NCBI RefSeq assembly: GCF_000482705.1
Contig: NZ_AXWO01000003.1
Location: 248,001 to 312,000 of the forward strand
Origin: Glycomyces arizonensis DSM 44726
GTDB lineage: Bacteria; Actinomycetota; Actinomycetes; Mycobacteriales; Micromonosporaceae
Length of the DNA stretch: 64,000 nt
Reading direction: 5' to 3'
The notes beneath the pieces were generated by a model. That model was given only the letters and a program-made list of their open reading frames with translations, made no database searches and was not told where the DNA came from. Within the stretch, counting starts at the first letter, position 1. Each line of letters starts with the position of its first letter. Positions 4,061 to 21,792 of the stretch are shown here, one piece after another. The position numbers were made by a program, and so were the translations under genes.

Positions 4061-7000
4061 ATGAACCACTCCGACAACACCGGTGGCACCGCCGACGAGG
4101 ACCGCCTCCGCCTCCCCGAGAGCTGGCGTCGGCACGTGCTGCCCTGGCGCGGCCGCGACGCCGCGAACAGCGCCGACCTCGACACCGAGATCGACCCCGC
4201 CGCGTCCGAGGCGGTGGCCCGGCGGATCGAGGAGTTCCGGCCGCTCATCGAGAGGGCCATGGCCAAGGGCGGCAGCGCCGAGCACTACATCCCGCTGGTG
4301 AAGGACCACCTCGAAGGCCGACCGAACCCGGCCGGGGCCGCCGCCCTGGCGCAGATGCTGGAGAGCACCGACTACCGCAAGGCCGACCCCGCCGGGCGGC
4401 GGCGGCATCTCGACGCCTGGCTCACCGACCACGGTCTCGCCTTCGCCACCGCCGCCGTCCTGGAGTCGTCGATGATGCACGGCTACCCGCTCAAGGAATC
4501 CTCCTACCTCTCCTGGCCCATCAGCTCCTACAGCTACCTGTACCAGCACGAGGTCTGGAAGGACCTCCAGGGATCGCTGCTGCGCATCCGCTCGCTCCTC
4601 GCCCTGGCCCCCGAGTCGGAATACCGCGAGATCGTCGCCGCGATCGACCCCCTCCGCACCGATGCGGAGCGGCGCATCGCCGCCGCGCTCCTGATGCCGA
4701 CCGAAGCGGCCTGGGTCAAGGACGCCTGCGACGCGCTCGACGGCTACTTCAGCCACCAGGGCGACGACTGGCCGATGTGGTCCTTCGCGGCCGCCCCCGA
4801 ATACCTCGGCCTGTTCCGAAGGCGCCACGTCGAGACCGATCACATCGACGCGCGCAACCTCGCCCCGCTGCTCGCCGGGCTGGGAACCGGTGCGCTGCCG
4901 TTCCTGACCAGCGCCCTGGAATGGGGCTTCGGGAGGCTCTCCAAACCGGCCCGCGCCGCCCTGCTGACCGCGATCGGGCTGCTGCCCTCGGACGAGGCCA
5001 CCGGTCACCTGATCGACAAGCTGGAGCTGTCCGGCGCGCTGAGCGCGGTCATCGACGTCGCCGAGCGGTTCCCCCACCGCACCCTCCGGGTCGTCGCGGC
5101 TCGGCTCGACGGCGCCGATCCGGCAATGCGAGCCCGACTCACGGGCGTCGTCAAGTCCTCCCCGGCACTGAACGCGGCGCTGCCCGCCGCCGACGAGCGG
5201 ACCCGCGAAGCGATCGCCGCGCTCGTCGACGAACCGGGCCGCGTACCCGACGCCCCCGCCGAGGCGCTGCCGCCGCTGCTGGCCGCCCCGCCGTGGACCG
5301 CCAAGCGCCGCAGGCCGAAACCGGTCGTCGTCGACGGCCTCGAGGCGTCCGGTGCGACGCGACTGGTCTGGGCCGACGGCGAACGGGAGCGCTGGGCCTC
5401 GCTGGAGCACGACTACTACTCGCGGTACTGCGGCGAAGACTGGTGGAAGGACGAAGCCGCAAAGGCGGTGAAGCACGACCGCGCCACCGACTACACGCGC
5501 GTACTCGCCTACGCGCCCATGGAGATCGCCGCATCCCTGCCGACCGAGGCGCGGGAGCGGTTCGGCTTCCCGCACGCGGTCGGGGACCTCCAGGCCATCC
5601 TCGGACGCTTCGGCACCGAGGTGGCCGACCGGATCGTGGAGCTGATCGCCGTCGAAAGCGTCCACCACAAGGCACTGCCGCCCATCGTGAGCCCGGCGGC
5701 CGCCCGGCTCGCCGCCGACTGGCTGGCCCGCCTCAAGTCGGCGCGCGCCAGCGCGGCGGCCTGGTTCGACCGCAACGGCCGCGAGGGCGCCCCGATGCTC
5801 GTCCCCGACGCGCTGGGCACCGGCAAGCGGGCCCGCCGCTCCGCCGAGGCCGCCCTCGCCTACGTGGCGAGGCGCCACGGCGCGGACGTCGTCCTCGCCG
5901 CCGCCGAATCTTACGGCGAGACGGCTCTCGAGGCGGTGCGCGCCCTGCTCGACGCCGACCCGCTGGACCCGCGCGAGGCGAAGCTCCCCAAGACCCCCGC
6001 GTGGGCCGAGGCCGCCATGCTGCCGCAGGTGCTCCTCAAGGGGCGGCGGGCGGCCCTGCCGCCCGCGTCGGTCGGGCACCTGACCACCGTGCTCGCCATC
6101 GACAAGCCCGAATTCCCCTACGCCGGAGTCGACGTCGTCGCCGAGGCCTGCGACGGCGACTCCCTGCGCGACTTCTCCTGGGCGCTGTTCGAGCAGTGGA
6201 TCGCCGTCGGAGGCCCCGCCAAGGAAGGATGGGCGTTCACCCAGCTCGCGCACTTCGCCGACGAGGAGACCATCAGGGAACTCGCCGAGATGGTCCGCGT
6301 GTGGCCCGGACAGCGCCAGCACAAGCGGGCCGTCACCGGGCTCGAAGTGCTCGGCGCGATCGGCTCGGAGAGCGCGCTGCGAGCCATCCACGTGATCTCC
6401 AGGAAGGTCAAGTTCAAGGGGATCAAGCAGGAGGCCAAGTGGCAGATCGACGCGATCGCCGAGGGACTCGGCCTCACCGTCGACCAGCTCGCCGACCGCC
6501 TCGTGCCCGACTTCGGGCTCGATGACGGGACGAGCCTGGTCCTCGACTACGGCCCCCGCCGGTTCACCGTCGGCTTCGACGAGCAGCTGAAGCCGTTCGT
6601 CGCCGACGAGGGCGGCAAGCCGCTGGGGCGCCTGCCCAAGCCCGGCGCGAAGGACGACGCCGAGCTCGCCGAGGCCGCCTACGAGCGGTTCGCGCAGCTG
6701 AGGAAGGAGCTCCGCACGGTCGCGAAGGAGCAGGTGCGCAGGTGTGAGCGGGCCATGGTCGACCAGCGCGCCTGGACGGTGCCCGAGTTCGGGGAGTTCT
6801 TCGTCGACCACCCGCTCATGCGGCACCTGGCCCGCCGCCTCGTCTGGCTCGCCGAGTCGGACGGCGAGCGGCGCGGTTTCCGGCTCGCCGAGGACACGAC
6901 CGTCACCGACGTCGAGGACGACGGGTTCGAGCTGCCCGGCGACGCCGTGATCCGCCTGGCGCACCCCGTCATGCTGGGGGACCGGCTCGCGACCTGGAGC

Positions 7001-7432
7001 GAGCTGTTCGCCGACTACGAGATCCTCCAGCCGTTCAAGCAGCTCGCGCGCCCGATCCCCGCCTTCACCGACGAGGAGCTGAAGACCGGCCGGATCACCC
7101 GCTTCGACGGCGCGACGCTCAAGTCCGGCAGCGTCATCGGCCTGGCGACCCACTGGGGCTGGGAGCGCCCCGCCTCCGACGGCTTCTGGGTCGAACCGGG
7201 CCTCCACCGCCCGCTCCCGGCGGGCGGATTCGTCGTCGTCTCGCTCGATCCCGGCGTCGAGAGCTACCTCGGCAGGATCGACTCCTCGCAGGTCCAGACC
7301 GTGCGCGCGGTGCGCCTGTCCGCCACCGCGGACTACGGCGAGGACTCCGGCGGCGCCCACCCGACCGACATCGACGCGCTCACCGCCGCCGAAGTGCTCG
7401 GCGACCTCGCCCGCGTCACGGGGACCGCCTGA
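4061..7432 (+). CDS. DUF4132 domain protein, paralogue 1
   Basis: Large cytoplasmic protein of 1123 residues with no signal peptide or membrane segment. The C-terminal DUF4132 domain spans roughly residues 825-1010: DYGPRRFTVGFDEQLKPFV, LPKPGAKDD, then FADYEILQPFKQLARP. The long N-terminal part is helical with HEAT/ARM-like segments such as LEVLGAIGSESAL; no catalytic motif was recognised. I chose ATG 4061 rather than ATG 4031 because all three paralogues then begin with a short tail before R/D/H-L-x-LP-x-W, and a -10 box sits between the two ATGs. The E. coli relative is YehI (MolR), whose function is unclear. The gene is the first of three paralogues upstream of a MoxR/VWA cluster. Confidence 0.85.
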   Translation: MNHSDNTGGTADEDRLRLPESWRRHVLPWRGRDAANSADLDTEIDPAASEAVARRIEEFRPLIERAMAKGGSAEHYIPLVKDHLEGRPNPAGAAALAQMLESTDYRKADPAGRRRHLDAWLTDHGLAFATAAVLESSMMHGYPLKESSYLSWPISSYSYLYQHEVWKDLQGSLLRIRSLLALAPESEYREIVAAIDPLRTDAERRIAAALLMPTEAAWVKDACDALDGYFSHQGDDWPMWSFAAAPEYLGLFRRRHVETDHIDARNLAPLLAGLGTGALPFLTSALEWGFGRLSKPARAALLTAIGLLPSDEATGHLIDKLELSGALSAVIDVAERFPHRTLRVVAARLDGADPAMRARLTGVVKSSPALNAALPAADERTREAIAALVDEPGRVPDAPAEALPPLLAAPPWTAKRRRPKPVVVDGLEASGATRLVWADGERERWASLEHDYYSRYCGEDWWKDEAAKAVKHDRATDYTRVLAYAPMEIAASLPTEARERFGFPHAVGDLQAILGRFGTEVADRIVELIAVESVHHKALPPIVSPAAARLAADWLARLKSARASAAAWFDRNGREGAPMLVPDALGTGKRARRSAEAALAYVARRHGADVVLAAAESYGETALEAVRALLDADPLDPREAKLPKTPAWAEAAMLPQVLLKGRRAALPPASVGHLTTVLAIDKPEFPYAGVDVVAEACDGDSLRDFSWALFEQWIAVGGPAKEGWAFTQLAHFADEETIRELAEMVRVWPGQRQHKRAVTGLEVLGAIGSESALRAIHVISRKVKFKGIKQEAKWQIDAIAEGLGLTVDQLADRLVPDFGLDDGTSLVLDYGPRRFTVGFDEQLKPFVADEGGKPLGRLPKPGAKDDAELAEAAYERFAQLRKELRTVAKEQVRRCERAMVDQRAWTVPEFGEFFVDHPLMRHLARRLVWLAESDGERRGFRLAEDTTVTDVEDDGFELPGDAVIRLAHPVMLGDRLATWSELFADYEILQPFKQLARPIPAFTDEELKTGRITRFDGATLKSGSVIGLATHWGWERPASDGFWVEPGLHRPLPAGGFVVVSLDPGVESYLGRIDSSQVQTVRAVRLSATADYGEDSGGAHPTDIDALTAAEVLGDLARVTGTA

Positions 7433-7436
7433 CGCG

Positions 7437-7482
7437 CGCCGCGGCGGCCGTGTTCCATAGTGGAAATACGGCCGCCGCGGCG
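7437..7482. terminator. Strong hairpin between DUF4132 genes 1 and 2
   Basis: Two perfect 15-nt arms (7437-7451 and 7468-7482, CGCCGCGGCGGCCGT and its complement) enclose a smaller TTCCA/TGGAA stem. It starts 5 nt after the stop codon of gene 1 and ends 12 nt before the promoter block of gene 2. This fits a terminator that insulates the two genes. Confidence 0.7.
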
Positions 7483-7494
7483 AACCGCCCGCGA

Positions 7495-7516
7495 TGTCGT
7501 ACCGGTTTCCTAAGCT
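7495..7516 (+). promoter_or_regulatory. Promoter block of DUF4132 gene 2
   Basis: TGTCG at 7495-7499, 11 nt, then TAAGCT at 7511-7516, which ends exactly 7 nt before ATG 7524. The block is nearly identical to the one before gene 3: both read TGTCG-n-ACCGG-n-T-n-CC-TANGCT. Confidence 0.65.
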
Positions 7517-7523
7517 GGCGACC

Positions 7524-10500
7524 ATGACCGAAACCCCGACGCCGTCGCTCCCCGACGAGCACCGACTGGACCTCCCCGCCGACTGGAGCCGGTACCTGCC
7601 CCTGCGGCGCGGCCAGGGCCGCCGCGGGATCGAAGCCGACCTCGCCCGCGCCGAGCGCACCCGCTCGCGGCTCTCGGCGGACCTCGAGGAGATCGTGCGG
7701 ATCCTCGAACTGGAGCCGAACGAGGGCTGCCGGGACGAGGGGCTGGCGTTCGCGGACGGGGAGCCCCACCCGTTCGGCGCGGCGGTGGTCGGCGTGATCG
7801 CCCAGCACATGCGCGCCGCCCACCGGGTGACGCCGTTCGACTTCTTCAACCTGGTGCTGGCCGACCACGGCCCGGCCGTCGCGGTGGCCGCCGCCGTGGA
7901 GTTCCTGGGCATGGTCCCCTCGTCGCGGCACGCCTCCGAAGGGCAGGTGGTGGTCCACTGGGCGAACCTGAACGGCCTCGAGCACGCCTGGAAGCCGCTC
8001 CGCTCCCTCATCGGCGCCGTCAGGGACCTGGTGGCCGCCGTCCCCGACGCCGAATACGCTTCGATCACCGCGCTCGTGGACCTCAGCCGGGGCACCGCTG
8101 TCAAACGCCTGGCGGCGGCCGTCCTCGTCCCGGAGGAGACCGCATGGGTGAAGGAGGCCTGCGCCGAGTACACCCACGGCTACCAGCGGAACTTCGTCAC
8201 GCTCCTGCTGCTCCAAGCCGCGAGCGCGGCCGGGCACGCCGAGGGCGCCCTCGCCCTGTTCGCGCAGGCCTACCGCAGAAGCGCCGACTGGACGGCGCCG
8301 CTGGTGGCCGCGGCCGGGACCGACGCCCTGCCGCACCTCACCGACGCGCTGGGGTACCGGGGCAACGCGAGCGAACGCAAGGCGCTGCTCGCCGCCATCG
8401 CGGTGCTGCCCGACGACGAGGCGATGGCCCACCTCCTCGACCACCTCGGCGAACCCCAGGTCATCACGTTCGCGACCGAGGCCGCCGCCCGGTTCCCCCG
8501 TCGCGCGCTCCGCCTCGCCGCCGCCAGGGCCGCAGACGCCGCGAGCGAGGAGCGCAGGCGCCTGGCCGCGATCCTCCGCTCCGACCCGGTCCTGCTCGAG
8601 ACCGCGCTGCCGACGCTCGACCGGGAGACGAGGGACGCCGTCGCGGCCGTCGTCGAGACGGGCGGGCGCCTCCCCGGCGCGTCCGAGGCCGAACTCCCCG
8701 CCCTCCTGGCGAACCCGCCCTGGGCGAGGAAGGGCGGCAAGCGCAAGGGTCCCGTCGTCGACGGCCTGGTGCCGCCGCCGGTGAACCGCGTCGAACTGGA
8801 CGAGTCCGAACGCGTGGACTTCGAATGGCGGCGCTCGGGGCGGGACCAGGCCCACTTCGACGCCATGGACCGGCACTTCGGCCGGGACGGCTTCGACTAC
8901 ACCGAGTTCTTCGTCTTCGCGTCGGTCGAGCTCGCCAGGGCGCGGCTCGGCGACTGGCACGGCGAGACCGAGAGCACCTGGAGCGGGGAGCTCAAGGAGA
9001 TCCTCCACCGCCTCGGCCCCGAAGCGACCGACCCCGTCCTGAAGGCCATCGCGGCGGAACCGGCCTACCGCGGCGAGGCGATCCTGGGAATCGTGAGCCT
9101 CGGCGCCGCCCGCACGGCCGCCGACTGGCTCGTCCGGCGCAAGTCCAGCCGCCGCCTCGCCGCGCGGTGGCTGGAGCTGCACTCCGCCGACGCCGCGCTA
9201 CTGCTCATCCCCGACGCGCTCGGCGCGAAGCGGAAGGAGCGGACCGCCGCCGAGGCGGCCCTGCGGCACCTGACCGTGACGTCCGGACCAGGGGCCGTGC
9301 GCGAGGCGGCCGAGGCACACGGGCCCGAGGCCGCCGCCGCGATCGAGGAGCTGACCGGCCGCGACCCGCTGGACCCGGTCGGCAAGCGGCTCCCGAAGAC
9401 CGCCGAGCAGTTCGCCCCGGCGCTCTTCCCGCAGGTCCTCCTCAAGGGACGCGAGCGGGCCCTCCCGGAGTCCGCCGTCGCGCACCTCGTCACCGTGCTG
9501 TCCATCGCCACCCCCGACTACCCGTACGCCGGGATCGGCGTCGTCGCCGAGCATTGCGACCGCGAGTCGCTCGCCCGCTTCTCGTGGGCGGTCTTCGAGC
9601 ACTGGCTCAACCTCGGCGCGCCGCCCAAGCACGGCTGGGCGCTCACGCAGCTCGCCCACTTCGCCGACGACGACACCGTCCGCGACCTCACCGCGCACCT
9701 CCGCCGGTGGCCCGGCATGAACCACCACAGGCGGGCCCTCACCGGGCTGGAGGTCCTCGGCGCGATCGGCAGCGAGGCCGCCCTGCGCGCTGTTCACTCG
9801 ATCGCCGAGAAGTCCGAGTTCGAGGCGCTCCGCATGGAGGCGGACACCCAGATCCGCGCCGTCGCCGACGGACTCGGCCTGAGCTGCGACCAGCTCGCCG
9901 ACCGGCTCGTCCCCGACTTCGGGCTCGGCGAGGCGCAGACCCTGCTCATCGACTACGGGCCGCGCCGGTTCACCGTCGGCTTCGACGAGCAGCTCAAGCC
10001 CTTCGTCACCGACGACAAGGGCAAGCAGCGCAAGGCATTGCCGAAACCTGGCGTGAAGGACGACGAGGAGCTCGCCCAGCGCGGCAGGAAGCGGTTCACG
10101 CAGCTGAAGAAGGAGCTGCGGACCGTCTCGGCCGAGCAGGTCAAGCGCATGGAGCGGGCCATGGTCGAGGGCCGCACCTGGTCCGCGGAGGAGTTCCGCC
10201 GCCACGTCGCCGAGCACGCCCTGGTGTGGCACCTGGCGCACCGCCTGGTGTGGCTGGCCGACGCGGGCGGGAAGCGGACGGCGTTCCGCCTGGCCGAGGA
10301 CCGCAGCTGCGCCGACGTCGAAGAGGACGACGTGGCGCTGCCCGGCGACGCGGTGATCCGCCTGGCGCACCCGGTGCTGCTGGGGGAGCAGGTCGGGCGG
10401 TGGTCGGAGCTCTTCGCCGACTACGAGCTCCTGCAGCCGTTCGCCCAGTTGGCGCGGCCCGCGATGGCGTTCACGCCCGAGGAGGACGCGACCGGGCGCC

Positions 10501-10796
10501 TGGAGCGGTTCGAGGGCCGCGAGGTCTCGACCGGCGCGCTGATGGGCCTGGCGGCCAAGGGGTGGGACCGCTCGGAGTCGTGGCGGGGCGGCTGGGAGGC
10601 GGGGATGTCCTACGTGCTGCCCGAGGCGGGCGTGCTGGCGATCGGCCTGGGCGCGGGCACGAGGGACACGACGCAGACGATCACGTCGGTGCGGTTGCAC
10701 CGGTCCGAGGGGAGCGACGCGAGCCTGCTGGACGCCGACCCGGTGCTGGCCTCCGAGGTCCTGGCCGGACTCGCGAAGGTGACGAAGACGCTCTGA
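7524..10796 (+). CDS. DUF4132 domain protein, paralogue 2
   Basis: Cytoplasmic protein of 1090 residues, close paralogue of the gene just upstream. The DUF4132 domain starts near residue 807 and shares DYGPRRFTVGFDEQLKPFV, LPKPGVKDD, KKELRTV and FADYELLQPFAQLARP with paralogue 1. The N-terminal two thirds again consist of helical repeat-like segments, for example GLEVLGAIGSEAALRAVH. ATG 7524 is set by the adjacent -10 box; an earlier in-frame start at 7494 would overlap that promoter. The gene lies 91 nt after paralogue 1 but is separated from it by a strong hairpin and its own promoter, so it appears to be an independent unit. Function unknown. Confidence 0.85.
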   Translation: MTETPTPSLPDEHRLDLPADWSRYLPLRRGQGRRGIEADLARAERTRSRLSADLEEIVRILELEPNEGCRDEGLAFADGEPHPFGAAVVGVIAQHMRAAHRVTPFDFFNLVLADHGPAVAVAAAVEFLGMVPSSRHASEGQVVVHWANLNGLEHAWKPLRSLIGAVRDLVAAVPDAEYASITALVDLSRGTAVKRLAAAVLVPEETAWVKEACAEYTHGYQRNFVTLLLLQAASAAGHAEGALALFAQAYRRSADWTAPLVAAAGTDALPHLTDALGYRGNASERKALLAAIAVLPDDEAMAHLLDHLGEPQVITFATEAAARFPRRALRLAAARAADAASEERRRLAAILRSDPVLLETALPTLDRETRDAVAAVVETGGRLPGASEAELPALLANPPWARKGGKRKGPVVDGLVPPPVNRVELDESERVDFEWRRSGRDQAHFDAMDRHFGRDGFDYTEFFVFASVELARARLGDWHGETESTWSGELKEILHRLGPEATDPVLKAIAAEPAYRGEAILGIVSLGAARTAADWLVRRKSSRRLAARWLELHSADAALLLIPDALGAKRKERTAAEAALRHLTVTSGPGAVREAAEAHGPEAAAAIEELTGRDPLDPVGKRLPKTAEQFAPALFPQVLLKGRERALPESAVAHLVTVLSIATPDYPYAGIGVVAEHCDRESLARFSWAVFEHWLNLGAPPKHGWALTQLAHFADDDTVRDLTAHLRRWPGMNHHRRALTGLEVLGAIGSEAALRAVHSIAEKSEFEALRMEADTQIRAVADGLGLSCDQLADRLVPDFGLGEAQTLLIDYGPRRFTVGFDEQLKPFVTDDKGKQRKALPKPGVKDDEELAQRGRKRFTQLKKELRTVSAEQVKRMERAMVEGRTWSAEEFRRHVAEHALVWHLAHRLVWLADAGGKRTAFRLAEDRSCADVEEDDVALPGDAVIRLAHPVLLGEQVGRWSELFADYELLQPFAQLARPAMAFTPEEDATGRLERFEGREVSTGALMGLAAKGWDRSESWRGGWEAGMSYVLPEAGVLAIGLGAGTRDTTQTITSVRLHRSEGSDASLLDADPVLASEVLAGLAKVTKTL

Positions 10797-10805
10797 AGGC
10801 CGGGT

Positions 10806-10842
10806 GGCGGTGGGCGAGCGTCGAGCGCTCGGGCCCACCGCC
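10806..10842. terminator. Shared hairpin between convergent genes
   Basis: Arms GGCGGTGGGC (10806-10815) and GCCCACCGCC (10833-10842) with an inner CGAGCG/CGCTCG stem. It lies between the 3' ends of DUF4132 gene 2 and the convergent methyltransferase gene and can serve both strands. Confidence 0.65.
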
Positions 10843-10864
10843 GCCGAATGACGCCCGCCTCCGC

Positions 10865-11692
10865 TCAGGCCTTTCTCGCGATGCCCGCCATCTGCGTGCG
10901 CTCGTAGGGCTCCAGGTCCTCGACTGCGGGGACCGGCAGGTCGGGCTGCTCCGGGAACCACCGCGAGATGTACTCCAGACCGGGCGGCGCCATCTCCATG
11001 CCGAGGAAGTGGCCCTCCAGCGCCGCGACCGGGCGGATCCAGCCGTTGCCGAGCGTCTCGATGCACGCCCGTGACAGCGCCCGCTGCTCGGGCTCGCCGG
11101 TGTCGGGCCAGGAGGTGATGAACAGGCGGCTGCCCGAGGCCACCGCGCCCATCAGCGTCGCGACGATGTCGTCGGGTCGCTGCTCGTCGCTGATCTGCAT
11201 GATCATTCCGATGATCATCACCGCGACCGGCCGCTCGAAGTCCAGGAAGGACAGGACCTCGGGGTCGGAGAGGATGCGCTCGGGCTCCAGCAGGTCGGCG
11301 CCGATCACGATGGCGTTGTGGTTCTCGGCGAGCAGGGACTTCGCGTGGGAGACGACCATCGGGTCGTGGTCGACGTAGACCACCCGGGCGTCGGGGTTGA
11401 TGTCCTGGGCCACCTCGTGGGTGTTCCGCTCGGTGGGCAGGCCGCACCCGATGTCGATGATCTGGTCGATCCCGGCCGCCCGCACCAGGTACTCGACGCC
11501 GCGGATGAGCCCGTTCCGGTTGAGCCTGGCGCATTCGCGCGCCCGCGGGATGTGGGCGGCGAAGACCTCGGCGGCCTCGCGGTCGACTTCGAAGTTGGTG
11601 GTGCCGCCCAAGAGCGCGTCGTAGACGCGGGCGGTCGTCGGCACGGTCGCGTCGATGCCCGAAGGCGGTTCGGCGGCTGCGGTCTCGGTCAT
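10865..11692 (-). CDS. SAM-dependent methyltransferase, DUF574 type
   Basis: Rossmann-fold methyltransferase of 275 residues from the actinobacterial family formerly called DUF574 (Methyltransf_19). Visible are VPTTARVYDALLGGTTNFEVD near the N-terminus (all before the core), the SAM loop DIGCGLPTERNTHE and the acidic strand end VVYVDHDPMV. Substrates of this family are generally not known. ATG 11692 has a strong GGAAGG site about 10 nt upstream; an upstream GTG would add 17 residues. It is the only minus-strand gene in the 4-24 kb stretch and interrupts the DUF4132 series. Whether it belongs to that system or was inserted by chance cannot be told. Confidence 0.9.
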   Translation of the reverse strand: MTETAAAEPPSGIDATVPTTARVYDALLGGTTNFEVDREAAEVFAAHIPRARECARLNRNGLIRGVEYLVRAAGIDQIIDIGCGLPTERNTHEVAQDINPDARVVYVDHDPMVVSHAKSLLAENHNAIVIGADLLEPERILSDPEVLSFLDFERPVAVMIIGMIMQISDEQRPDDIVATLMGAVASGSRLFITSWPDTGEPEQRALSRACIETLGNGWIRPVAALEGHFLGMEMAPPGLEYISRWFPEQPDLPVPAVEDLEPYERTQMAGIARKA

Positions 11693-11860
11693 GGTCGGCC
11701 TTCCTTCCGTGAGAGGTGAGCCCCGGAGGCATGCGAACCCCACTGCCGTGAGGTGTGTCCCACATTACTGGAGTTCGGGCCGCCGGGTGAGGCGGTTTTC
11801 GCCCGAACCCTTGCCCGAGAAGGAGGTGCGGCAGAGCGGCCGTCTTGCCGACCACCGCCG

Positions 11861-11872
11861 GTGTTCGAACAC
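11861..11872. repeat. 12-bp perfect palindrome upstream of DUF4132 gene 3
   Basis: GTGTTCGAACAC lies about 22 bp upstream of the TATGCT -10 box, in the -35 region. TTCGAA also occurs upstream of gene 1 but not gene 2. It could bind a dimeric regulator, but it is short and may be chance. Confidence 0.3.
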
Positions 11873-11877
11873 GGCGC

Positions 11878-11899
11878 TGTCGCACCGGCTCCCTATGCT
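11878..11899 (+). promoter_or_regulatory. Promoter block of DUF4132 gene 3 operon
   Basis: TGTCG at 11878-11882, 11 nt, then TATGCT at 11894-11899. Unlike genes 1 and 2, the start codon is 33 nt further on and has a GAAGGA ribosome site, so this transcript would have a short leader. It probably drives the operon through the VWA gene. Confidence 0.6.
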
Positions 11900-11932
11900 T
11901 CGTGGGACGCACTCGCCCGCCGAAGGACGGAT

Positions 11933-14900: not shown

Positions 14901-15184
14901 AGACGATGCGGTGGAGCGGCCGCTACGCTTCCCCCGAGGACTTCCGCACCCGCGTCTGGGGCTTCACCCGCCGAGTGACCGGCGGCTGGCTCCTGGCCGA
15001 CATCGACCCCGCCCCGGGCGCCCGCGAGCCCGACCCGCGCGGACGGCACCGCCTGGTCTCCGTGCGGCTCATGGCCACCCAGAACCGGCGCGCCGAGTTC
15101 GCCAGGCCGCTGCCCGGCGAGCGCCTCGGCCCCGTCGAGGCCTCCGAACTCCTCGCCGACCTGACCGGCGCCATCGAGCACTGA
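11933..15184 (+). CDS. DUF4132 domain protein, paralogue 3
   Basis: Cytoplasmic protein of 1083 residues and the most diverged of the three paralogues. The DUF4132 domain starts near residue 795 with DYGPRHFSVRFDDLLRPRL, then LPKPGVRDDEAT and FSDYTVLQPFPQLARP. Several positions that are identical in paralogues 1 and 2 have changed (GFDEQLKPF to RFDDLLRPR). The N-terminal half holds helical repeats. ATG 11933 follows GAAGGA; the long in-frame extension back to 11753 crosses the promoter and was rejected. It lies 51 nt upstream of the MoxR gene on the same strand, so it is the member most directly tied to the ATPase/VWA operon. Function unknown; E. coli counterpart YehI. Confidence 0.85.
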   Translation: MTEPIAPQEDQLILPPEWLARVLPRRGNGVRRPAGLDGEAPLRVREQVEANLPYLHRSLESPDFDAALAAAGLAHLEGEPSPEGAAVVSLLLRATERYGWQTSVYRGLKIKANREPFESWAVEFGLPFAVSAAVEELSYDIGRSGSGDGKACRVRPGDGTRFVWHLWGDPEGPIAAARGLIAEAEAEEYRRTVAEAAERRTTRLRRTATAYLLPDEADWAARACEEMSGDNGVFDLGLLWLVVGDTAQLAPLRRKAVHPAHLKGQTVAELVCNLGAAALPILTDTLNYKSLEAPQRAALFEGIAMLPCDEAMAFLIDRSGEPQAPPAVRSAAARFPVRAAKTLASRATALSGLELARLGGLLRSADPERFAAALAHLGEGERAAVTGLAPDAPVAGHERLPQVLTSPPWANRRAKAPRRPALALESPQEIEIVWEPAEYERARAIEPDYREWDEDGYWSGISGQVYNQVGLALADAFWGQLARNGAHAADAIVERLRTKPRYGKALVPIRSAKAAALAVDWLARRMSARAHAVAWLDRHGEHAVPLLAPMALGSDRRRRGGAEVALRHVADRIGAEAAAKAAGHHGPEAAERIASLLAGDAMEPPFGVDPAPGAWADPDMLPPVLLRDRDAALPRSAVSHLIAILSLWSPLAPYRGADAVAETCDPESLTRFCHALFELWLSAGAPSSDAWAVGQLARFGTDATVALLEPMVRSWPGSNHADRAVLGLEALAAIGTEAAFGALYRMSRLDKFPATTLTARELAERVATRRGFDTERFADRIIPDHGLADPAALTLDYGPRHFSVRFDDLLRPRLADDSGKPRPRLPKPGVRDDEATARASIERYKRLTKDVERTAAEQAQRLREAMLSGRTWSAGEFRALAEHPIVSSLAGRLVWATGEGTGFRLAEDGGLADVHDREIELGPDAAVRLAHPALLGDELPAWIQLFSDYTVLQPFPQLARPAMAFAADEAATGHLRRFEGATATMGALQETMRWSGRYASPEDFRTRVWGFTRRVTGGWLLADIDPAPGAREPDPRGRHRLVSVRLMATQNRRAEFARPLPGERLGPVEASELLADLTGAIEH

Positions 15185-15235
15185 CCCGAACACCGCACGT
15201 CCACGACACCCGCCCCGAGCACTAGAGAGCAGGCC

Positions 15236-16318
15236 ATGAGCCGGACCGAACCGAAACTCCAGAGGCCCCCCGCCGAACAGCGCTACGCCGACGAACTCGC
15301 CAAGCTCGCCGCCGACGACACCGCGCCCCGCCCGCCCGGCTGGGCCCTCAGCCTCCAGGCCGCCCGCACCTTCATCGTCGGCGACGAGAAGCTCGGCCTC
15401 GCCCGCAAGTTCGTCGGCGACCCGTCCCTGATCGACCGCGCCCTGGTCACCCTCGCCACCAACCGCGGCCTCATGCTCGTCGGCGACCCCGGCACCGCCA
15501 AGTCCCTGCTGTCCGAGCTCATCGCCGCCGCCGTCTCCGGCGACTCCACCCTCACCATCCAGGGCGGCGCCTCCACCACCGAGGACCAGATCGCCTACTC
15601 CTGGAACTACTCCCTGCTGGTCGCCGAGGGCCCCACCCCGCGCGCGCTCGTGCCCGCCCCCCTCTACCAGGGCATGGCCGAAGGCCGCGTCGTCCGCTTC
15701 GAGGAGATCACCCGCTGCCCCCTCGAAGTGCAGGACTCGCTGCTCTCGCCCCTGTCCGACCGGGTCCTGGCCGTCCCCGAGCTCGAAGGCGGCGACGGCA
15801 TGGTCTTCGCCCGCGAGGGCTTCAACATCATCGCCACCGCCAACACCCGCGACAGAGGCGTCAACGAGATGAGCGCGGCCCTCAAGCGCCGCTTCAACTT
15901 CGAGACGGTCTTCCCCATCGGCGACTTCGCCACCGAACTCGACCTGGTCGAGGCCGAGGCCGCCGCCGCCCTCGAACGCTCCGGCGTGCCCGTGCCGCCC
16001 AGCCGCGACGTCCTCGAAGTGCTCGTCCGCGTCTTCCGCGACCTGCGCTCGGGCGACGGCTCCGGCGACCGGATGCAGTCGGTCATGTCCACCGCCGAGG
16101 CCGTCTCCGTCGCCCACGCCGTGGGCATCAAGGCCTGGTACCTGCGCGGCGGCGAGGCCGCCGCCGGGGACATCGTCGACTGCATGGCCGGGGCCGCCGC
16201 CAAGGACAGCGCCGAGGACCTCGCCAGGCTCCGCCGCTACCTCGAACAGCGCGCCTCCAAGCGCAAGAGCGGGCACTGGCAGGACCTTTACCAGGCGCGC
16301 AACCTCCTGCCGGGCTGA
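15236..16318 (+). CDS. MoxR-type AAA+ ATPase, YehL subfamily
   Basis: AAA+ ATPase of 360 residues. The Walker A loop is GDPGTAKS at residues 83-90, the Walker B strand ends in VVRFEE near 153-158, and sensor 1 is IIATANTRD near 199-205. MoxR ATPases typically work with VWA-domain proteins as chaperone-like remodelling machines, and YehL is one of the recognised MoxR subfamilies. The size and the following DUF5682, VWA and SWIM genes match the E. coli yehL-yehM-yehP-yehQ order. The ATG start has a GAGAGCAGG site. The stop codon overlaps the next start (TGATG), so translation is probably coupled. The target of the machine is not known. Confidence 0.9.
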   Translation: MSRTEPKLQRPPAEQRYADELAKLAADDTAPRPPGWALSLQAARTFIVGDEKLGLARKFVGDPSLIDRALVTLATNRGLMLVGDPGTAKSLLSELIAAAVSGDSTLTIQGGASTTEDQIAYSWNYSLLVAEGPTPRALVPAPLYQGMAEGRVVRFEEITRCPLEVQDSLLSPLSDRVLAVPELEGGDGMVFAREGFNIIATANTRDRGVNEMSAALKRRFNFETVFPIGDFATELDLVEAEAAAALERSGVPVPPSRDVLEVLVRVFRDLRSGDGSGDRMQSVMSTAEAVSVAHAVGIKAWYLRGGEAAAGDIVDCMAGAAAKDSAEDLARLRRYLEQRASKRKSGHWQDLYQARNLLPG

Positions 16319-18630
16319 TGACCATGCCCGCCAACGACAATCTCCACGTCATCGGGGTGCGCCACCACTCGCCGGCCTGCGCGCGCCTCGTCGCCGACGC
16401 CGTCGACCGGCTCAGGCCCGCCCGCGTCCTCATCGAGGGCCCCGCGGACTTCAACGACCGCCTCGGCGAACTCGCCCTGGCGCACACCCTCCCCATCGCC
16501 ATCTACTCCTACATGGGCACCGAGGGCGGGGCCCGGCGCTCCTGGTCGCCGCTGTGCGACTACTCGCCCGAATGGGTCGCCCTCACCAAGGGCCGCGAGA
16601 GCGGCGCCGAGGTCCGCTTCATCGACCTGCCCGCCTGGCACGACGCCTTCGCCGAGATCGAGAACCGCTACTCCGACGCCGAACGCCGCTACGCCGACGC
16701 CACCGAGCGGCTGTGCCGCGAGTTCGCCGTCGACAACACCGACGCCCTGTGGGACCACCTCGTCGAGATCGCCGACCCCGGCGGCCTGGCCGAACGCCTC
16801 GAACGGTACTTCGACCTGGTGCGCGGCGAAGCCGAGACCACCGAACCCGGCAGCGCTGTTGCCGACAGCGCCCGCGAACGCCACATGGCCCAGTGGATCC
16901 GCGCCGCCCTCGCCGAGACCGACGGCCCGGTCCTGGTCGTCTGCGGCGGCTTCCACGCCCCCGCCCTGCGCCGCCTCGCCGCAGACGGCCCCAGCGCGCC
17001 GCCCGAAGTACCCCGGCCGCCGGACGGCGCCGACACCGGCAGCTTCCTCGTGCCCTACTCGTTCAAGCGGCTCGACGCCTTCGCCGGATACCAGTCCGGG
17101 ATGCCCTCGCCCGAGTACTACCAGCGGCTGTGGGACGACGGCGCCGAGGCGGCCGCGGGCGCGCTCGTCGAACTCATCGCCACCCGGCTGCGCGCCAAGG
17201 ACCAGGTCGTCTCGACCGCCGACCTCATCGGCGCCCGCAGCCTCACCGAAGGACTCGCGAGGCTGCGCGGCCACAGCCGCCCCGGCCGCACCGACCTGCT
17301 CGACGGCCTCGCCGCCGCCCTGGTCAGCGACGACCTCGAACAGCCGCTCCCGTGGACCAGGCGCGGCACGCTCACCGCCGGAACGCACCCGGTGGTCGTC
17401 GAGATGACCGCCGCGCTCACCGGCTCGCGCACCGGCACCCTCCACCCCGACACGCCCGCCCCGCCGCTCGTCGCCGACGTCGAGGCCGCCTTGGACCGGC
17501 TCGGCCTCGACGGCACCCGGCAGCCGAGCCTCGACCTCACCGACGGACGCGACCTCGAACGCAGCCGCACCCTGCACTGCCTGCGCCTGCTCGGCATCCC
17601 CGGGTTCGCCCGCGAGGACGGGCCCTCGGCCGGATCGGACGTGACCGCGAGCGAACGCTGGGATCTGCGCGACCGCGACGACCGGCTCCCGGCCGTGATC
17701 GAGGCCGGCGTCTACGGCGCGACCATCGGCGACGCCGCCCAGACCGTCCTGGAGCACCGGATCGACCGAGCCGGAAACGACCTCGACGCCCTCTCGGGCG
17801 TCCTGTTCGGCGCCGCGCTGTGCGGTCGGGCGCACCTGACCGACCGGCTCGGCGAGGCGATCGCCGACGGCGTCGCCGACTGCGGCGACCTCGCCGCCGT
17901 CGGCTCGGCGCTCACCGTCGCGCTCGCCCTGTGGCGCCACGACCACCTGTTCGGCACCGCGGGCAGCGACCTGTACGCCACCGTCATCACCGCGTGCGGC
18001 CACCGCGCGATGTGGCTCGCCGAAGGGCTGCACGCCGGTCCCGGCCCCGCCGAACTCGGACGGTTGAAAGCCCTGGCGGCCGTGCGGGACGCCGTCCGCC
18101 ACGCCCCGGCGCTCACCCCCGCCGCCGCATCGGTGGCGGCCACGGCGACCCGCATCGCCGCCGACGGCGCCGCACCGCCGGACCTGCGCGGCGGGGCCGC
18201 CGGGCTGGCGTGGTCGCTCGGCGCGTCCCTGGACGCCGCCGGGGCCGCCGCGGGCGTCTCCACACCCGACCGGCTGGGGGACTGGCTGGCCGGACTGTTC
18301 TGGGTCGCCAGGGAAGAGGTCCTGGCCGAGACCGCCGAGCACGGCGTCGTCCACGCCGTCGACGAGATCGTCGGCGACATGACCGACGACGAGTTCCTCG
18401 TGGCACTGCCGGCATTGCGGCAGGCGTTCGCGTTCTTCCCACCGCGCGAGCGGTCCCTGATCGCCGAGCAGCTGATCGCGCTGCGAGGCACCGGCGAGAG
18501 CGCCCGCTCCCTCCTCGCCAAGCAGCACGTCGACCCGGTGCTCGTCGCCGCCGCGCACGCCCTCGAAGCCCGCGTCGACGAGGTCCTGACTCGCGAACAT
18601 CTCACGGCCGCAACGAAGGAGCAGCGATGA
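16318..18630 (+). CDS. DUF5682 family protein (YehM-like)
   Basis: Cytoplasmic protein of 770 residues beginning with LHVIGVRHHSPACARLV, a His-rich N-terminal motif typical of DUF5682, followed by RPARVLIEGPADFNDRL. This beginning resembles the HxxH / E-G pattern of TraB/ChaN-like folds, which is an inference only. The rest is mainly helical with no recognised catalytic site. The length is very close to E. coli YehM (about 760 residues). The start overlaps the MoxR stop and the stop overlaps the start of the VWA gene (ATGA), placing it in the middle of a tightly coupled operon. The biochemical role of the family is unknown. Confidence 0.85.
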   Translation: MTMPANDNLHVIGVRHHSPACARLVADAVDRLRPARVLIEGPADFNDRLGELALAHTLPIAIYSYMGTEGGARRSWSPLCDYSPEWVALTKGRESGAEVRFIDLPAWHDAFAEIENRYSDAERRYADATERLCREFAVDNTDALWDHLVEIADPGGLAERLERYFDLVRGEAETTEPGSAVADSARERHMAQWIRAALAETDGPVLVVCGGFHAPALRRLAADGPSAPPEVPRPPDGADTGSFLVPYSFKRLDAFAGYQSGMPSPEYYQRLWDDGAEAAAGALVELIATRLRAKDQVVSTADLIGARSLTEGLARLRGHSRPGRTDLLDGLAAALVSDDLEQPLPWTRRGTLTAGTHPVVVEMTAALTGSRTGTLHPDTPAPPLVADVEAALDRLGLDGTRQPSLDLTDGRDLERSRTLHCLRLLGIPGFAREDGPSAGSDVTASERWDLRDRDDRLPAVIEAGVYGATIGDAAQTVLEHRIDRAGNDLDALSGVLFGAALCGRAHLTDRLGEAIADGVADCGDLAAVGSALTVALALWRHDHLFGTAGSDLYATVITACGHRAMWLAEGLHAGPGPAELGRLKALAAVRDAVRHAPALTPAAASVAATATRIAADGAAPPDLRGGAAGLAWSLGASLDAAGAAAGVSTPDRLGDWLAGLFWVAREEVLAETAEHGVVHAVDEIVGDMTDDEFLVALPALRQAFAFFPPRERSLIAEQLIALRGTGESARSLLAKQHVDPVLVAAAHALEARVDEVLTREHLTAATKEQR

Positions 18631-19751
18631 GCGCAGACCTGGAACGGTGGCGGCTGATCCTCGGCCCCGCCGCCGAGCAGCACTGCGGAGGACTGTCGGA
18701 CGAAGGCCGGGGCCGCGACGCCGCCCTCGAATGGCTCTACAGCCGCGACGACGACCTCGACAAGCGCGAGATCCGCCGCGGCGGCGCCCGCGGCGCGGGC
18801 AGCGGGGACTCCGTGCTCAACACCGTGGACTGGCTCGACGAGATCCACCGGCTCTTCCCCAAGGAGACCGTCGAACGGCTCGAGCGGGACGCCATCGAAC
18901 GCTACGAGATCGACGACATCGTCACCAACGCCGACGTCCTCGAACGCGTCGAACCGAACCCGGCGCTCCTCAAGGCCGTGCTGCGCACCAAGCACCTGAT
19001 GAACCCCCAGGTCCTGGCCGCCGCGCGCCGCATCGTCGCCGAAGTGGTCCGCCAGCTCGTCGAGAAGCTCTCCGTCCAGGTCCGCACCGCCTTCACCGGC
19101 AGCCGCGCCCGCCGCCCCAGCCACCACCGCCGCGCCCGCGACTTCGACCTGCGCCGCACCATCAAGGCCAACCTCAAGCACTACGACCCCGAGCGGAACC
19201 GGATCGCGATCGAGCGGCCGCACTTCCACTCGCGCACCGCCCGCAGGCTCGAGCAGTGGCAGATGATCCTCGTCGTCGACCAGTCCGGCTCGATGGCCGG
19301 ATCGGTCATCCACTCCGCGGTCACCGCCTCGTGCCTGTACGCCCTGCCGGGCCTCAAGACGCACCTGGTCGCCTTCGACTCAAGCGTCGTCGACCTCACC
19401 AGCGACGTCGACGACCCGGTCGAACTGCTCATGAAGGTCCAGCTCGGCGGCGGCACCGACATCGCACGGGCCGTCGACTACGCGGCCGGGCTCGTCGAGA
19501 ACCCCAGGCGCTCGATCATCGCGCTCGTCACCGACTTCTACGAGGGCGGCGACCCCTCGCGCCTCGTCAACACCGTCAAGCAGCTGTGCGAGCAGGGAAC
19601 CGAGTTCCTCGGACTGGCCGCATTGGACGAGGACGCCAACCCCTCGTACGACCGGGACCTCGCCGGGCGCCTGGCGTCCGCGGGCGCCCACATCGGCGCC
19701 ATGACGCCCGCGCACCTCGCCGAATTCGTCGCCGAAAGGCTGGGCAAGTGA
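18627..19751 (+). CDS. VWA domain protein (YehP-like)
   Basis: Protein of 374 residues with a C-terminal von Willebrand factor A domain. The metal-ion adhesion site is intact: DQSGSMAG (Asp218, Ser220, Ser222) and the downstream Thr in LGGGTDIARA. The N-terminal half is helical and highly basic near residues 158-180 (RARRPSHHRRARDFDLRR). VWA proteins of this type are the usual adaptor or effector partners of MoxR ATPases. The start overlaps the DUF5682 stop by 4 nt and has AAGGAG upstream. Size and order match E. coli yehP. It probably works in one complex with the neighbouring ATPase. Confidence 0.9.
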   Translation: MSADLERWRLILGPAAEQHCGGLSDEGRGRDAALEWLYSRDDDLDKREIRRGGARGAGSGDSVLNTVDWLDEIHRLFPKETVERLERDAIERYEIDDIVTNADVLERVEPNPALLKAVLRTKHLMNPQVLAAARRIVAEVVRQLVEKLSVQVRTAFTGSRARRPSHHRRARDFDLRRTIKANLKHYDPERNRIAIERPHFHSRTARRLEQWQMILVVDQSGSMAGSVIHSAVTASCLYALPGLKTHLVAFDSSVVDLTSDVDDPVELLMKVQLGGGTDIARAVDYAAGLVENPRRSIIALVTDFYEGGDPSRLVNTVKQLCEQGTEFLGLAALDEDANPSYDRDLAGRLASAGAHIGAMTPAHLAEFVAERLGK

Positions 19752-19860
19752 CCCACGCCCGTCACGCCCGCCCGTCGCCCACCGCCGCCCGACATCGGAA
19801 GCGCTTCGCGCTCGCGGTGCCAAGCCGGCGCCGCTTCGCGACGCCTCTCCCCAAACCGGA
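19752..19860 (+). other. 109-bp gap before the SWIM gene
   Basis: There is no gene here. The gap contains repeats of CGCTTCGCG around 19799-19838 that can fold into weak hairpins. This is the only break of more than 60 bp in the run from DUF4132 gene 3 to the SWIM gene, so the SWIM gene may be partly uncoupled. Confidence 0.4.
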
Positions 19861-21792
19861 GTGAACACTGTGCTCAGAGAAGACCTCCTCGCCCTCACCC
19901 CCGAGGGCCTCGCCGCGCTCGCCAACCGCGGCCTGGTCAAACGCGCCGCCAAGGAACTCGACGCCGGGACCGTCCCCGAACTCGACGTCGCCGCCGACGG
20001 CGCCGTCCGCGCCATCTTCCCCGACGGCACCGAGACCACCCTGCCCGCCGAAGGCGGCCTGGAGGCCGCCGCCTGCACCTGCTCGGCCACCGCGAAATGC
20101 CGCCACCGCGTCGGCGCCGTCCTCGCCTACCAGCGCCGCCACGAAGCCCCGAGCACCACCGCCGAAGCGACCGCCACTCCCGCATCGATCACCGACGAGC
20201 AGCTGCGCGAAGCGGTCGACCGCCACGCCCTCACCGCCGCCGAGAAGACCCGCCGCGCCGGGTACACCGCCAAGCTCACCTGGCCCGGCCCCGACCGGCC
20301 CGCCGTCGCCGAACTGCCCACCTGCACCATCTCGTTCCTCGTCCCCGGACAGCTCGGCTACGTCCACTCCGACGCGACCGGCCCCGCCCGCGACACCGGC
20401 ATCGTCCTCGCCGTCTGGGCCTTCCGCGAAGCCGAGGCCACCGAGGCGACCTCGATCAGCGTCGGCGGCGGCGCGAGCGAGGCCGAGCTCTCCGAGGCCA
20501 CGACGCTCGCCGAGCAGGTGCTCCTCGGCGGCGTCGAGAGCGTCGACGGCGTCCTGGCCGCCGCGCTCACCCGCGAAGCCGAGTCCCTGACCAAGCGCCG
20601 GATGCACTGGCCCGCGGGCGCCATGCGCGACCTCATCGGTCAAGTCCAGCGCTACCGCGAACGCTCGGCCTCCTACGACCCGCAGCGCTTCGCCGCACTC
20701 CTGGCCGAACTGCCCGCCCGCCACCGCGCCGGCCGCTCGCCTTCGGGCACGCCGAACTCGCAGGTCCTCGGCAGCGACGAAGTCGACCAGACGCCCCTGA
20801 AACTCGTGCGGCTCACCGCCCTCGGCTGCCGCATCGGCACCGACGGCGAACGCCGGACCGCCGAGCTGTTCCTCGCCCACCCCGAGACCGGCATGGTCCT
20901 CACCGTCGCCCGCGACTGGGAGATCCCCGAAGACCGGCCCCTCACCGGCCACGACCTGGCCGGGCGCCGCCTCGCCGGGTGCCGGATCGGCACGCTCGCC
21001 GCGGGCAACGTCGTCTCCGAGGCCGCCAGCCGCACCGCCGCCCGCGCCCTCAAGCTCGGCACCGGCCGCCTCGCCAAGACCCAGGTGCTCCCGCTGGGCC
21101 GCTCCTGGGACGAGCTGCCCGCGAGCCTGCGCGTCACCGATCTCGACGCCGCCCGCGAGCAGCTGTCCGCGATGCCGCCGGGCATGATCCGCCCGCGCGT
21201 CGCCGCCGAACTCGTCCGCGTCGTCGCCGTCGACCGGATCGAGACGGCCGGATACGATCCCGCCTCGCAGACCTTCGAAGCGGTCTTCACCGCCCCGGGC
21301 GGCGGCAGCGCCCGCCTGCTGGCCGTCCACCGCGCCGCCGCCCCCGGCGCGCTCGAAGCCATCGAGGCCGCCCTGGCCCGAGGGACGCGGGCGATCGCCG
21401 GGACGCTGCGCCGCCACCGCGGCGAGCTCGTCGTCGAGCCCACCGCGCTCCTCACCGACGAGGGCCCCGTCGTCCCCGACCTCGCGCCCGGCGACGACTC
21501 GGCCGAACTCGGCGCCGCGGCTGAGACCGAACGCGATCCCCTCGCGGCCGCCCTCGACGGCGCGCTCGACGTCTGCGCCGATCTCGCCCACCGCGGGCTG
21601 CGACAGGCCCGCGAGCCCTCCCGTCAGCGCGTCGAAGCCGCCGCCGCTACACTGCACCGTGTCGGGTTGCGAAGGGCCGCAATTGATTTCGTCCACCTGT
21701 CCAAAACGTTGGGCGAAGACGACGACGCCGCGCGAACCGCGGCCTGGACCGAAGCCGCCATCCGGACGCTCGTCACCGCCGAGCTACACTGA
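19861..21792 (+). CDS. SWIM zinc-finger protein (YehQ-like)
   Basis: Protein of 643 residues. A SWIM zinc finger is visible near the N-terminus as C72-T-C74-x5-C80-R-H82, the CxC...CxH pattern used for nucleic-acid or protein binding. The remainder has no recognised catalytic motif. The GTG start at 19861 has a CCGGAG site partly overlapping upstream sequence. Length and position match E. coli yehQ, which ends the same gene set. It could supply target recognition for the MoxR/VWA complex; that is inference. It is the last gene of the block; malic enzyme follows after 147 bp. Confidence 0.85.
   Translation: MNTVLREDLLALTPEGLAALANRGLVKRAAKELDAGTVPELDVAADGAVRAIFPDGTETTLPAEGGLEAAACTCSATAKCRHRVGAVLAYQRRHEAPSTTAEATATPASITDEQLREAVDRHALTAAEKTRRAGYTAKLTWPGPDRPAVAELPTCTISFLVPGQLGYVHSDATGPARDTGIVLAVWAFREAEATEATSISVGGGASEAELSEATTLAEQVLLGGVESVDGVLAAALTREAESLTKRRMHWPAGAMRDLIGQVQRYRERSASYDPQRFAALLAELPARHRAGRSPSGTPNSQVLGSDEVDQTPLKLVRLTALGCRIGTDGERRTAELFLAHPETGMVLTVARDWEIPEDRPLTGHDLAGRRLAGCRIGTLAAGNVVSEAASRTAARALKLGTGRLAKTQVLPLGRSWDELPASLRVTDLDAAREQLSAMPPGMIRPRVAAELVRVVAVDRIETAGYDPASQTFEAVFTAPGGGSARLLAVHRAAAPGALEAIEAALARGTRAIAGTLRRHRGELVVEPTALLTDEGPVVPDLAPGDDSAELGAAAETERDPLAAALDGALDVCADLAHRGLRQAREPSRQRVEAAAATLHRVGLRRAAIDFVHLSKTLGEDDDAARTAAWTEAAIRTLVTAELH

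Follow-up and report, generated by a model that had tools for sequence, protein, structure and literature searches.

A YehL-type MoxR/VWA gene set with DUF4132 proteins in Glycomyces arizonensis, preceded by a promoter word of the DNA-damage type

The locus and its relatives

A set of genes centred on a MoxR AAA+ ATPase lies in a 64-kb stretch of the Glycomyces arizonensis DSM 44726 genome (5.05 Mb), hereafter the window (G000:C3:248001-312000; ~70% GC), where its first gene is preceded by a promoter word resembling that of DNA-repair genes. The set, encoded on the plus strand, begins with two DUF4132 genes: copy 1 at 4061-7432 (1123 aa; PF13569, E 1.4e-56), with an additional upstream ATG at 4031, and copy 2 at 7494-10796 (PF13569, E 2.6e-56). 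An earlier note on this DNA gave the coordinates correctly, except that copy 2 is 1100 aa long when counted from its first ATG, the 1090 aa of that note corresponding to a later ATG. A third, diverged copy (11933-15184; 1083 aa; PF13569, E 1.2e-44) is the first gene of the ATPase operon, as that note had also observed, and is followed by the genes for MoxR (15236-16318; PF07728, AAA_5, E 9.7e-34), a DUF5682 protein (16318-18630; PF18934, E 4e-109), a VWA protein (18627-19751; PF05762, VWA_CoxE, E 4.4e-56) and a SWIM zinc-finger protein (19861-21792). The MoxR and DUF5682 genes overlap by 1 nt and the DUF5682 and VWA genes by 4 nt, and a gap of 109 nt separates the VWA and SWIM genes. The set is real, in that Pfam profiles match every member but the SWIM protein, which in a Pfam scan gave no match of its own and instead carries C-x-C-x5-C-x-H at residue 72. 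A minus-strand SAM-methyltransferase gene (Methyltransf_19; 10868-11692; PF04672, E 2.7e-77) stands between DUF4132 copies 2 and 3, so that the trio makes up more than one operon. Its cluster (C27; L-numbers denote fetched stretches, G-numbers genomes, and C-numbers protein clusters or contigs) is present in 3/50 loci, all Glycomyces-like (the window, L006 and L012), between or beside DUF4132 copies; we regard it as an intervening gene that probably does not belong to the system.

The last four genes of the set match Escherichia coli yehL, yehM, yehP and yehQ in order (NC_000913) and in sequence, and we call them orthologues. By BLASTP the window MoxR is 65% identical to YehL over 364 columns, similar enough to be placed in the YehL subfamily, the DUF5682 protein is 37.5% identical to YehM, and the VWA protein 57% identical to YehP; identity to YehQ is 31%. 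The closest named relative of the DUF5682 protein, from Glycomyces tenuis, is 88% identical. The equation of DUF4132 with YehI (MolR) in the earlier note stood in part: the DUF4132 proteins match YehI at 28-32% identity over 413-662 columns (BLASTP), while the name MolR presumably belongs to yehF/yehH. The annotated pseudogene yehH also has DUF4132 matches, and YehF, encoded upstream of yehI, is a WGR domain alone. The K-12 order, yehF-(yehH)-yehI-yehK-yehL-yehM-yehP-yehQ, thus holds the same five families as the window in the same order. The window differs in its three DUF4132 genes, interrupted by a methyltransferase gene, and in having no WGR match. The yehL-M-P genes are found in 5165/5426 E. 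coli genomes (>=80% cover), nearly always on the chromosome. E. coli KFu022 (L166, 7752-11400) lacks most of the set: between metG and yehR its annotation shows a frameshifted yehQ and mere fragments for WGR and VWA. YehL is listed as a recognised MoxR subfamily in passages of PMC3893208, and MolR is described as carrying a WGR domain in part of PMC8533742. The open-licence literature that we searched offered no function for the yeh set.

To describe the relatives of this locus we annotated 50 loci (the window, L045 with the genome's unlinked fourth DUF4132 gene, L005-L013 and L048-L086; stretches of 7.7-32 kb), using profiles built in this analysis. Four architectures were recognised. Type A (14 loci including the window) reads DUF4132 (1-4 copies) - MoxR - DUF5682 - VWA - SWIM, the short contig L013 having no DUF4132 gene and ending inside DUF5682. 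Type B (20 loci) places C3-cluster genes, encoding SWIM and DUF5691 proteins, before MoxR - DUF5682 - VWA (C3 genes in 19/20 loci; strict CxC..CxH in 14). Type C (5 loci) runs from a short DUF4132 gene through a 1680-aa protein and MoxR to DUF5682 and VWA in one reading frame and a SWIM-type protein (CxC..CxH in 5/5). Type D (10 loci) encodes a small protein, a 470-aa protein, VWA, MoxR and DUF5682, the small protein having its own Cys/His pattern in 9/10 (by eye). In most fetched loci the MoxR-DUF5682-VWA core is joined by a SWIM-type protein and a large variable partner.

Among 148 genomes of the class, window included (a first look scored at most 6 DUF5682 candidates per genome), DUF5682 occurs in 31, DUF4132 in 19 (18 over the cut-off) and both in 17, a co-occurrence with a Fisher value of 4e-12 that leaves kinship among the genomes uncorrected. 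All five DUF5682 places of the same kind as the window's (305-366 bits) and all seven of type C have a DUF4132 gene within 10 kb; this holds for none of the 24 places above 740 bits, the two split type B places or the 10 of type D. Scattering of DUF4132 independently of the MoxR/VWA set, which the earlier note would have counted against a single system, was seen only in part: 16/33 DUF4132 matches (one of them below the cut-off) are more than 10 kb from DUF5682, and 17 of the 19 DUF4132 genomes have both.

The genes of the set recur in the same order across Actinobacteria, in E. coli, on an Iodobacter plasmid and in a record from Nonomuraea, and conjugative plasmids of Sinorhizobium and Allorhizobium carry an operon MoxR-DUF5682-DUF4132-VWA-SWIM with DUF4132 inside it. 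Gene content and order conserved across lineages bear out the proposal of a single multi-protein system, and we judge from these comparisons that the locus is almost certainly one. Type I restriction genes and insertion sequences adjoin the system on the Iodobacter plasmid (L143, 19174-22831). A phage origin was considered and rejected: P0001 gave no phage match, P0004 matched one unannotated 14-kb record at 42%, and close-relative patterns found nothing in viral contigs. PADLOC models matched 0/7 system proteins at E 0.01.

Promoter words at system starts

Upstream of DUF4132 copy 1 is the word TGTCGGTC-N8-TAGGCT (4032-4053, plus strand), which ends 7 nt before the ATG at 4061, a leaderless geometry, and differs at one position from TGTCRGTG-N8-TANNNT, which we take to be the RecA-NDp/PafBC consensus. 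It is the sole match with at most one mismatch in the 64 kb (0.32 expected; 28/100 shuffles have at least one). A weaker variant of the promoter core with three mismatches, TGTCGCAC-N8-TATGCT (11878-11899, plus strand), lies 33 nt before the ATG of copy 3 at 11933, and the identical word is found upstream of MoxR in L012.

The word recurs at the starts of related systems. In a scan from 250 nt upstream to 30 nt into the first predicted gene over the 50 loci, exact words were found at 16/69 system starts (type A 3, B 6, C 4, D 3) versus 1/266 other starts, and words with at most one mismatch at 29/69 versus 5/266, one of these five 'other' starts being itself a DUF4132 gene that was kept among the controls (L074 1582-3867, minus strand). 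Counted by locus, with the window's corrected start included (70 starts), 24/46 loci have such a word, compared with two at most for any of 60 shuffled motifs. The relaxed core TGTC-N12-TANNNT occurs at 32/69 system starts versus 3/266 others and at 0/69 when the spacing is set to 10, 11 or 13, and the TGTCG[CT]A variant at 7/69 versus 1/266. Of seven further system loci taken from the 148 genomes, six carry the exact word where the operon starts, and the seventh has a one-mismatch site unassigned to a predicted start. Eight unlinked DUF4132 regions yielded the exact word in three and no exact match in five; two of the three (L152, L153) have a small gene immediately in front of DUF4132, with the word 7 nt before that gene, and in L151 the word has a like position with no assigned gene. 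On the Streptomyces plasmid L146 an exact word precedes an annotated short DUF4132 gene by 85 nt, with an exact word at the matching place in its relative L149; exact PafBC-type words also occur in family f19 genomes. An Embleya record has one match, away from DUF4132.

In the G. arizonensis genome as a whole the word has 98 matches at no more than one mismatch, versus 22 for the pattern read backward. We examined 47 distinct matches, 30 of them fetched automatically and the rest taken from hand-picked stretches. Seven show the leaderless geometry of 6-7 nt: these precede an SRAP-like gene, recA, radA, recO, recN, polA and the DNA polymerase IV gene. A further match is found 56 nt upstream of the gene for the proteasome ATPase; NCBIfam confirms these names except the SRAP-like one, which was assigned by eye. 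The same TGTCGGTC variant that precedes the system is found 7 nt before the first in-frame ATG of recA (a second ATG is at 40 nt). Two adjacent WCX (PF25583) genes lie on contig 22 (G000:C22), as does the proteasome ATPase gene; the pair was named PafB/PafC by position and by eye, NCBIfam giving no match, and Dop, PafA and the proteasome subunits on that contig were named likewise. The system and its host genome share with the PafBC (RecA-NDp) regulon of mycobacteria the promoter word, with the consensus as taken here, and a PafBC-like pair on the contig of the proteasome locus. The terms MoxR, SWIM and VWA are absent from the PafBC regulon papers PMC6789036, PMC8223512 and PMC11804915.

LexA-type control of the window system was considered and rejected, the actinobacterial SOS box CGAAC-N4-GTTCG having no exact match near it; at most one mismatch gives seven matches in the 64 kb (4.2 expected), of which those at 16800 and 17940 lie inside the DUF5682 gene with one mismatch each. 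Two exact words of this type, ~340 bp apart (50853-50866 and 51192-51205), fall within long reading frames elsewhere in the window.

Published data from two other lineages point the same way as the actinobacterial words. E. coli molR is named among known LexA-regulated genes in portions of PMC11039860 and PMC4576408, a control of LexA type where the window has a PafBC-type word, and a CTGG-N8-ACAG box one mismatch from consensus ends 9 nt before yehF. In Deinococcus radiodurans (DdrO), the proteins DRA0166 (DUF4132) and DR2173 (WGR) are reported, in part of PMC8533742, to rise with mitomycin C and not to do so in an irrE mutant.

Several observations weigh against damage-type control. The letters of the consensus did not turn up when three of the papers that describe the motif were searched for TGTC. 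The window word departs from this consensus at one position, and the ATG at 4061 is only 76 nt from the end of a gene on the same strand (by eye, heme O synthase-like), which makes read-through transcription possible. Of the 69 system starts, 37 are without even the relaxed core, the Nonomuraea L144 and Rhodococcus L148 records have no word match, and p-values overstate the case because many of the loci are related. Many of the own-genome matches precede genes with no known repair role, or no gene was found beside them; the word alone is therefore not proof of a damage promoter. Passages of PMC9380542 state that the mycobacterial PafBC motif appeared not to be conserved in Streptomyces venezuelae. 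In E. coli the same 28-kb stretch holds 12 other one-mismatch LexA-type sites. The rhizobial and Iodobacter operons showed no box in a range of 300 nt: alpha SOS boxes (GTTC-N7-GTTC) come no nearer than ~690 nt upstream (L141) on the two rhizobial plasmids, and LexA-like boxes in the Iodobacter and Proteus records were one-mismatch sites only, none of which in Iodobacter fell in the 300 nt ahead of any annotated gene of the operon. On balance we consider it highly probable, from the distribution of the word, that the system is induced by DNA damage in actinobacteria.

Properties of the component proteins

The ATPase and its VWA partner have intact core motifs. The window MoxR has an intact P-loop (GDPGTAKS) and RRF; a strict Walker-A pattern is found in 29/49 MoxR proteins, and the others carry variants such as GxPGTAKT. 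All 43 separate VWA proteins have the D.S.SM MIDAS motif, which in the window is DQSGSM, an intact DxSxS. The SWIM-type partner is recognisable by strict CxC..CxH in 32/49 loci and by a looser Cys/His protein in nine more. Profile comparison joined the type A and type C SWIM proteins (95%) and, less firmly, A with B (42%, E 3e-4) and B with D (53%, E 1e-4); no link was obtained for A-D, B-C or C-D, and unrelated controls reached 0.1-0.2%. ARAGORN called a tRNA-Pro at 21240-21329 (minus strand), antisense within the window SWIM gene, which is probably spurious.

The DUF4132 proteins are the variable part of type A. Copy number ranges from one to four beside a single ATPase, in line with the variation that the earlier note had asked about, and the fourth DUF4132 gene of G. 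arizonensis lies on contig 13, unlinked to the system. In a tree of 32 proteins, made by a quick method with SH-aLRT support only, copies cluster by lineage (Catenulispora, 98; Actinomadura, 94; G078, 100; the Glycomyces group, drawn open, 91), and DUF4132 copies, as judged from this tree, expand separately in each lineage. Within Glycomyces, window copy 1 groups with the partial first DUF4132 of G. tenuis L012 (77% identity over 305 columns), copy 2 is 72% identical to the third copy of that locus, and copy 3 groups with copy 3 of G. buryatensis L005 (SH-aLRT 100; 54% identity), which likewise lies beside MoxR; G. tenuis has no DUF4132 gene adjoining MoxR. The window copies are 31-33% identical to each other over residues 1-450 and 40-56% over residues 801-1133. 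The suggestion that they serve as interchangeable target-recognition subunits fits proteins that expand lineage by lineage and are less conserved in their N-terminal part. In E. coli, too, yehI is more variable than yehL-P (2054/5285 records at 90-95% identity versus 6/5290).

Three of six non-window DUF4132 proteins scanned (L073, L074 and Sinorhizobium L141) carry a fused WGR domain at the N-terminus, which the other three (L072, Iodobacter and YehI) do not show. Weak HEAT matches occur in 5/17 DUF4132 proteins and in one DUF5691 protein. Homology among the large partners DUF4132, DUF5691, C6 and C16 was sought with hhalign and rejected (<=0.8%), the exception being DUF4132 with C17 (93.9%). 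A HEAT scaffold common to the large partners is only a suggestion, because the HEAT matches are weak and hhalign gave no cross-homology. A PDB sequence search with DUF4132 returned no meaningful match. In L152 and L153 a 130-aa protein, without a Pfam match in L152, precedes a DUF4132-DUF7737 protein, and the unlinked DUF4132 genes of L151-L153 (from G101, G123 and G057) possibly represent a second, two-gene DUF4132 system.

The N-terminal domain of DUF5682 is a candidate hydrolase domain. An alignment of 23 proteins, drawn from types A-C only, shows RHH, E, D, RE..M and GxxH to be invariant, and over 49 DUF5682 proteins the patterns [CR]HH.P, E[GL]P and RE..M..G[GA].H are found in 48, 38 and 49 respectively. 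The conserved His (RHH), Glu (xEGP/ELP) and late GxxH are reminiscent of the TIKI/TraB/ChaN/Ere superfamily, and it is in this domain that weak profile matches fall: ChaN in 9/23 (best E 0.0074), TraB in 2/23 and DUF5694 in 2/23, all below the Pfam cut-offs, with ChaN matched in 2/9 and in 1/8 proteins in full-length scans. Portions of PMC6254334 describe a 2His/2Glu catalytic set for TIKI enzymes; DUF5682, unlike that superfamily, has Arg (Cys in type D) at the position of the ExH glutamate. ChaN and TraB proteins, sought as partners for profile comparison, were found in 1/98 and 0/98 genomes. Telling against the hydrolase reading, the ChaN match stays below the gathering score, the unrelated family CBM46 reaches E 0.0047 in one member, and the PDB sequence search gave no meaningful match, its designed PPR hits covering a helical stretch away from the motifs. 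DUF5682 thus weakly resembles TIKI/ChaN hydrolases, a lead that does not amount to membership, and a hydrolase activity is conceivable, though somewhat below an even chance.

Candidate function and its rivals

The promoter resembles that of DNA-repair genes, which suggests that this machine helps cells to handle DNA damage. We propose, with about even confidence, a DNA-damage-induced MoxR/VWA remodelling machine of the YehL type in actinobacteria, with DUF4132 as a variable client receptor, the client and the chemistry being inferred. Single-stranded DNA would activate PafBC and so switch on the operon. The MoxR ring would be coupled to its client by the VWA protein through its MIDAS, and by analogy with NorQ/NorD (PMC9976466) the two should form an ATP-driven remodeller in which VWA/MIDAS contacts the client. 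DUF4132 subunits and the SWIM protein would bring the machine to the client, probably a protein on damaged DNA, and the DUF5682 N-terminal domain, with its TIKI/ChaN-type hydrolase look, would cleave or process what the motor remodels. The choice of client or site would fall most readily to DUF4132, which is variable and has been duplicated repeatedly; we hold this role a little less firmly than the machine itself. In poly(ADP-ribose) polymerase (PARP) proteins WGR is a DNA-end-binding domain, and together with SWIM it points to nucleic acid; against this, Pfam scans found no WGR match in the window DUF4132 proteins.

A bolder version, which we consider improbable, would see in Yeh the bacterial equivalent of eukaryotic machinery that frees damaged DNA of proteins by extracting and cleaving them. 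DUF4132 (with WGR) and SWIM would locate damaged DNA together with the protein trapped there, which the MoxR ring and its VWA adaptor would pull loose and DUF5682, as a TIKI-type peptidase, would cut; such a machine would have been rebuilt in at least four architectures under three unrelated damage regulators (PafBC, LexA and DdrO).

Known MoxR/VWA chaperone pairs (NorQ/NorD, CbbQ/CbbO, RavA/ViaA, CoxD/CoxE) likewise consist of an AAA+ MoxR and an adjacent cognate VWA/MIDAS gene; unlike them, the window system adds DUF5682, a SWIM-type protein and DUF4132 or another large protein, and has DNA-damage-type promoter words. One alternative is a metallocofactor or complex-maturation chaperone of the CoxD/CoxE or NorQ/NorD kind, in which MoxR/VWA opens a metalloenzyme while DUF5682 and DUF4132 help to load metal. 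The window VWA belongs to VWA_CoxE, the pairs of known function mature enzymes (parts of PMC9976466 and PMC3893208), molR was named for molybdate use according to a title cited in PMC8533742, and the region is flanked by heme O synthase-like (2998-3981, plus strand) and heme A synthase-like (28942-29934, minus strand) genes, identified by eye. Those recurrent neighbours that were identified (a minority of the flanking genes) included no conspicuous metalloenzyme gene, the promoter word is of the damage type, and moeA/moeB are reported in part of PMC8533742 as unchanged in a condition that raises the DUF4132 gene. We rate maturation unlikely.

An equally unlikely role, in our estimate, is conflict with phages or mobile elements, in which DUF4132 copies would recognise varying invaders, MoxR/VWA would act as a threshold switch and damage control as the infection sensor. 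It draws on the lineage-specific DUF4132 expansion, the patchy actinobacterial presence of DUF5682 and the copies on conjugative plasmids, one of the Yeh plasmids (Iodobacter) having restriction genes and insertion sequences beside the system. The MoxR-vWA ternary conflict systems (Kaur et al., 2020; PMC7159879, seen in part) similarly combine a MoxR-vWA pair with a third large component, while YehL, SWIM and MolR are absent from the main text of that paper. The Yeh set differs from them in its near-universal chromosomal presence in E. coli and in a bpMoxR domain match of the window MoxR below the cut-off (20.7 bits versus 27); PADLOC is silent on all seven proteins, and the genes around it in the window look like housekeeping genes (a malic enzyme by Pfam, a transketolase-like one by eye). 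Among the roles offered earlier, a DNA-damage stress response has gained specific evidence and biological conflict has become less favoured. A general stress protein-quality-control chaperone with DNA damage as one of several inducers is very unlikely, for although a cyanobacterial MoxR expressed in E. coli gives resistance to various stresses (abstract of PMC11432383) and many own-genome words precede non-repair genes, some DUF4132 proteins have WGR domains and control is of the damage type in three phyla (PMC8533742 and PMC11039860, each in part).

Two further neighbours of the system may be recorded. The third gene downstream encodes an ADP-ribosylglycohydrolase (24533-25612, minus strand; PF03747, E 1.6e-74) whose cluster is also present in L005, L006 and L012. 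PARP proteins connect WGR with ADP-ribose chemistry, but the neighbourhood may reflect synteny and nothing more. At 28170-28831 (minus strand) two small adjoining genes are VapBC toxin-antitoxin-like (by eye).

Returning to the damage-induced remodelling machine, its kind, the YehL subfamily, is known, and what is new is the proposed damage-linked role; among the open-licence literature matches listed there was no description of the set as one system or as DNA-damage regulated in actinobacteria. With a damage-type word in all four actinobacterial architectures, and with the E. coli and Deinococcus reports, an orphan ATPase becomes a testable DNA-damage factor. The finding also bears on the existence of a PafBC response in Streptomyces, a question left open in the available text of PMC9380542.

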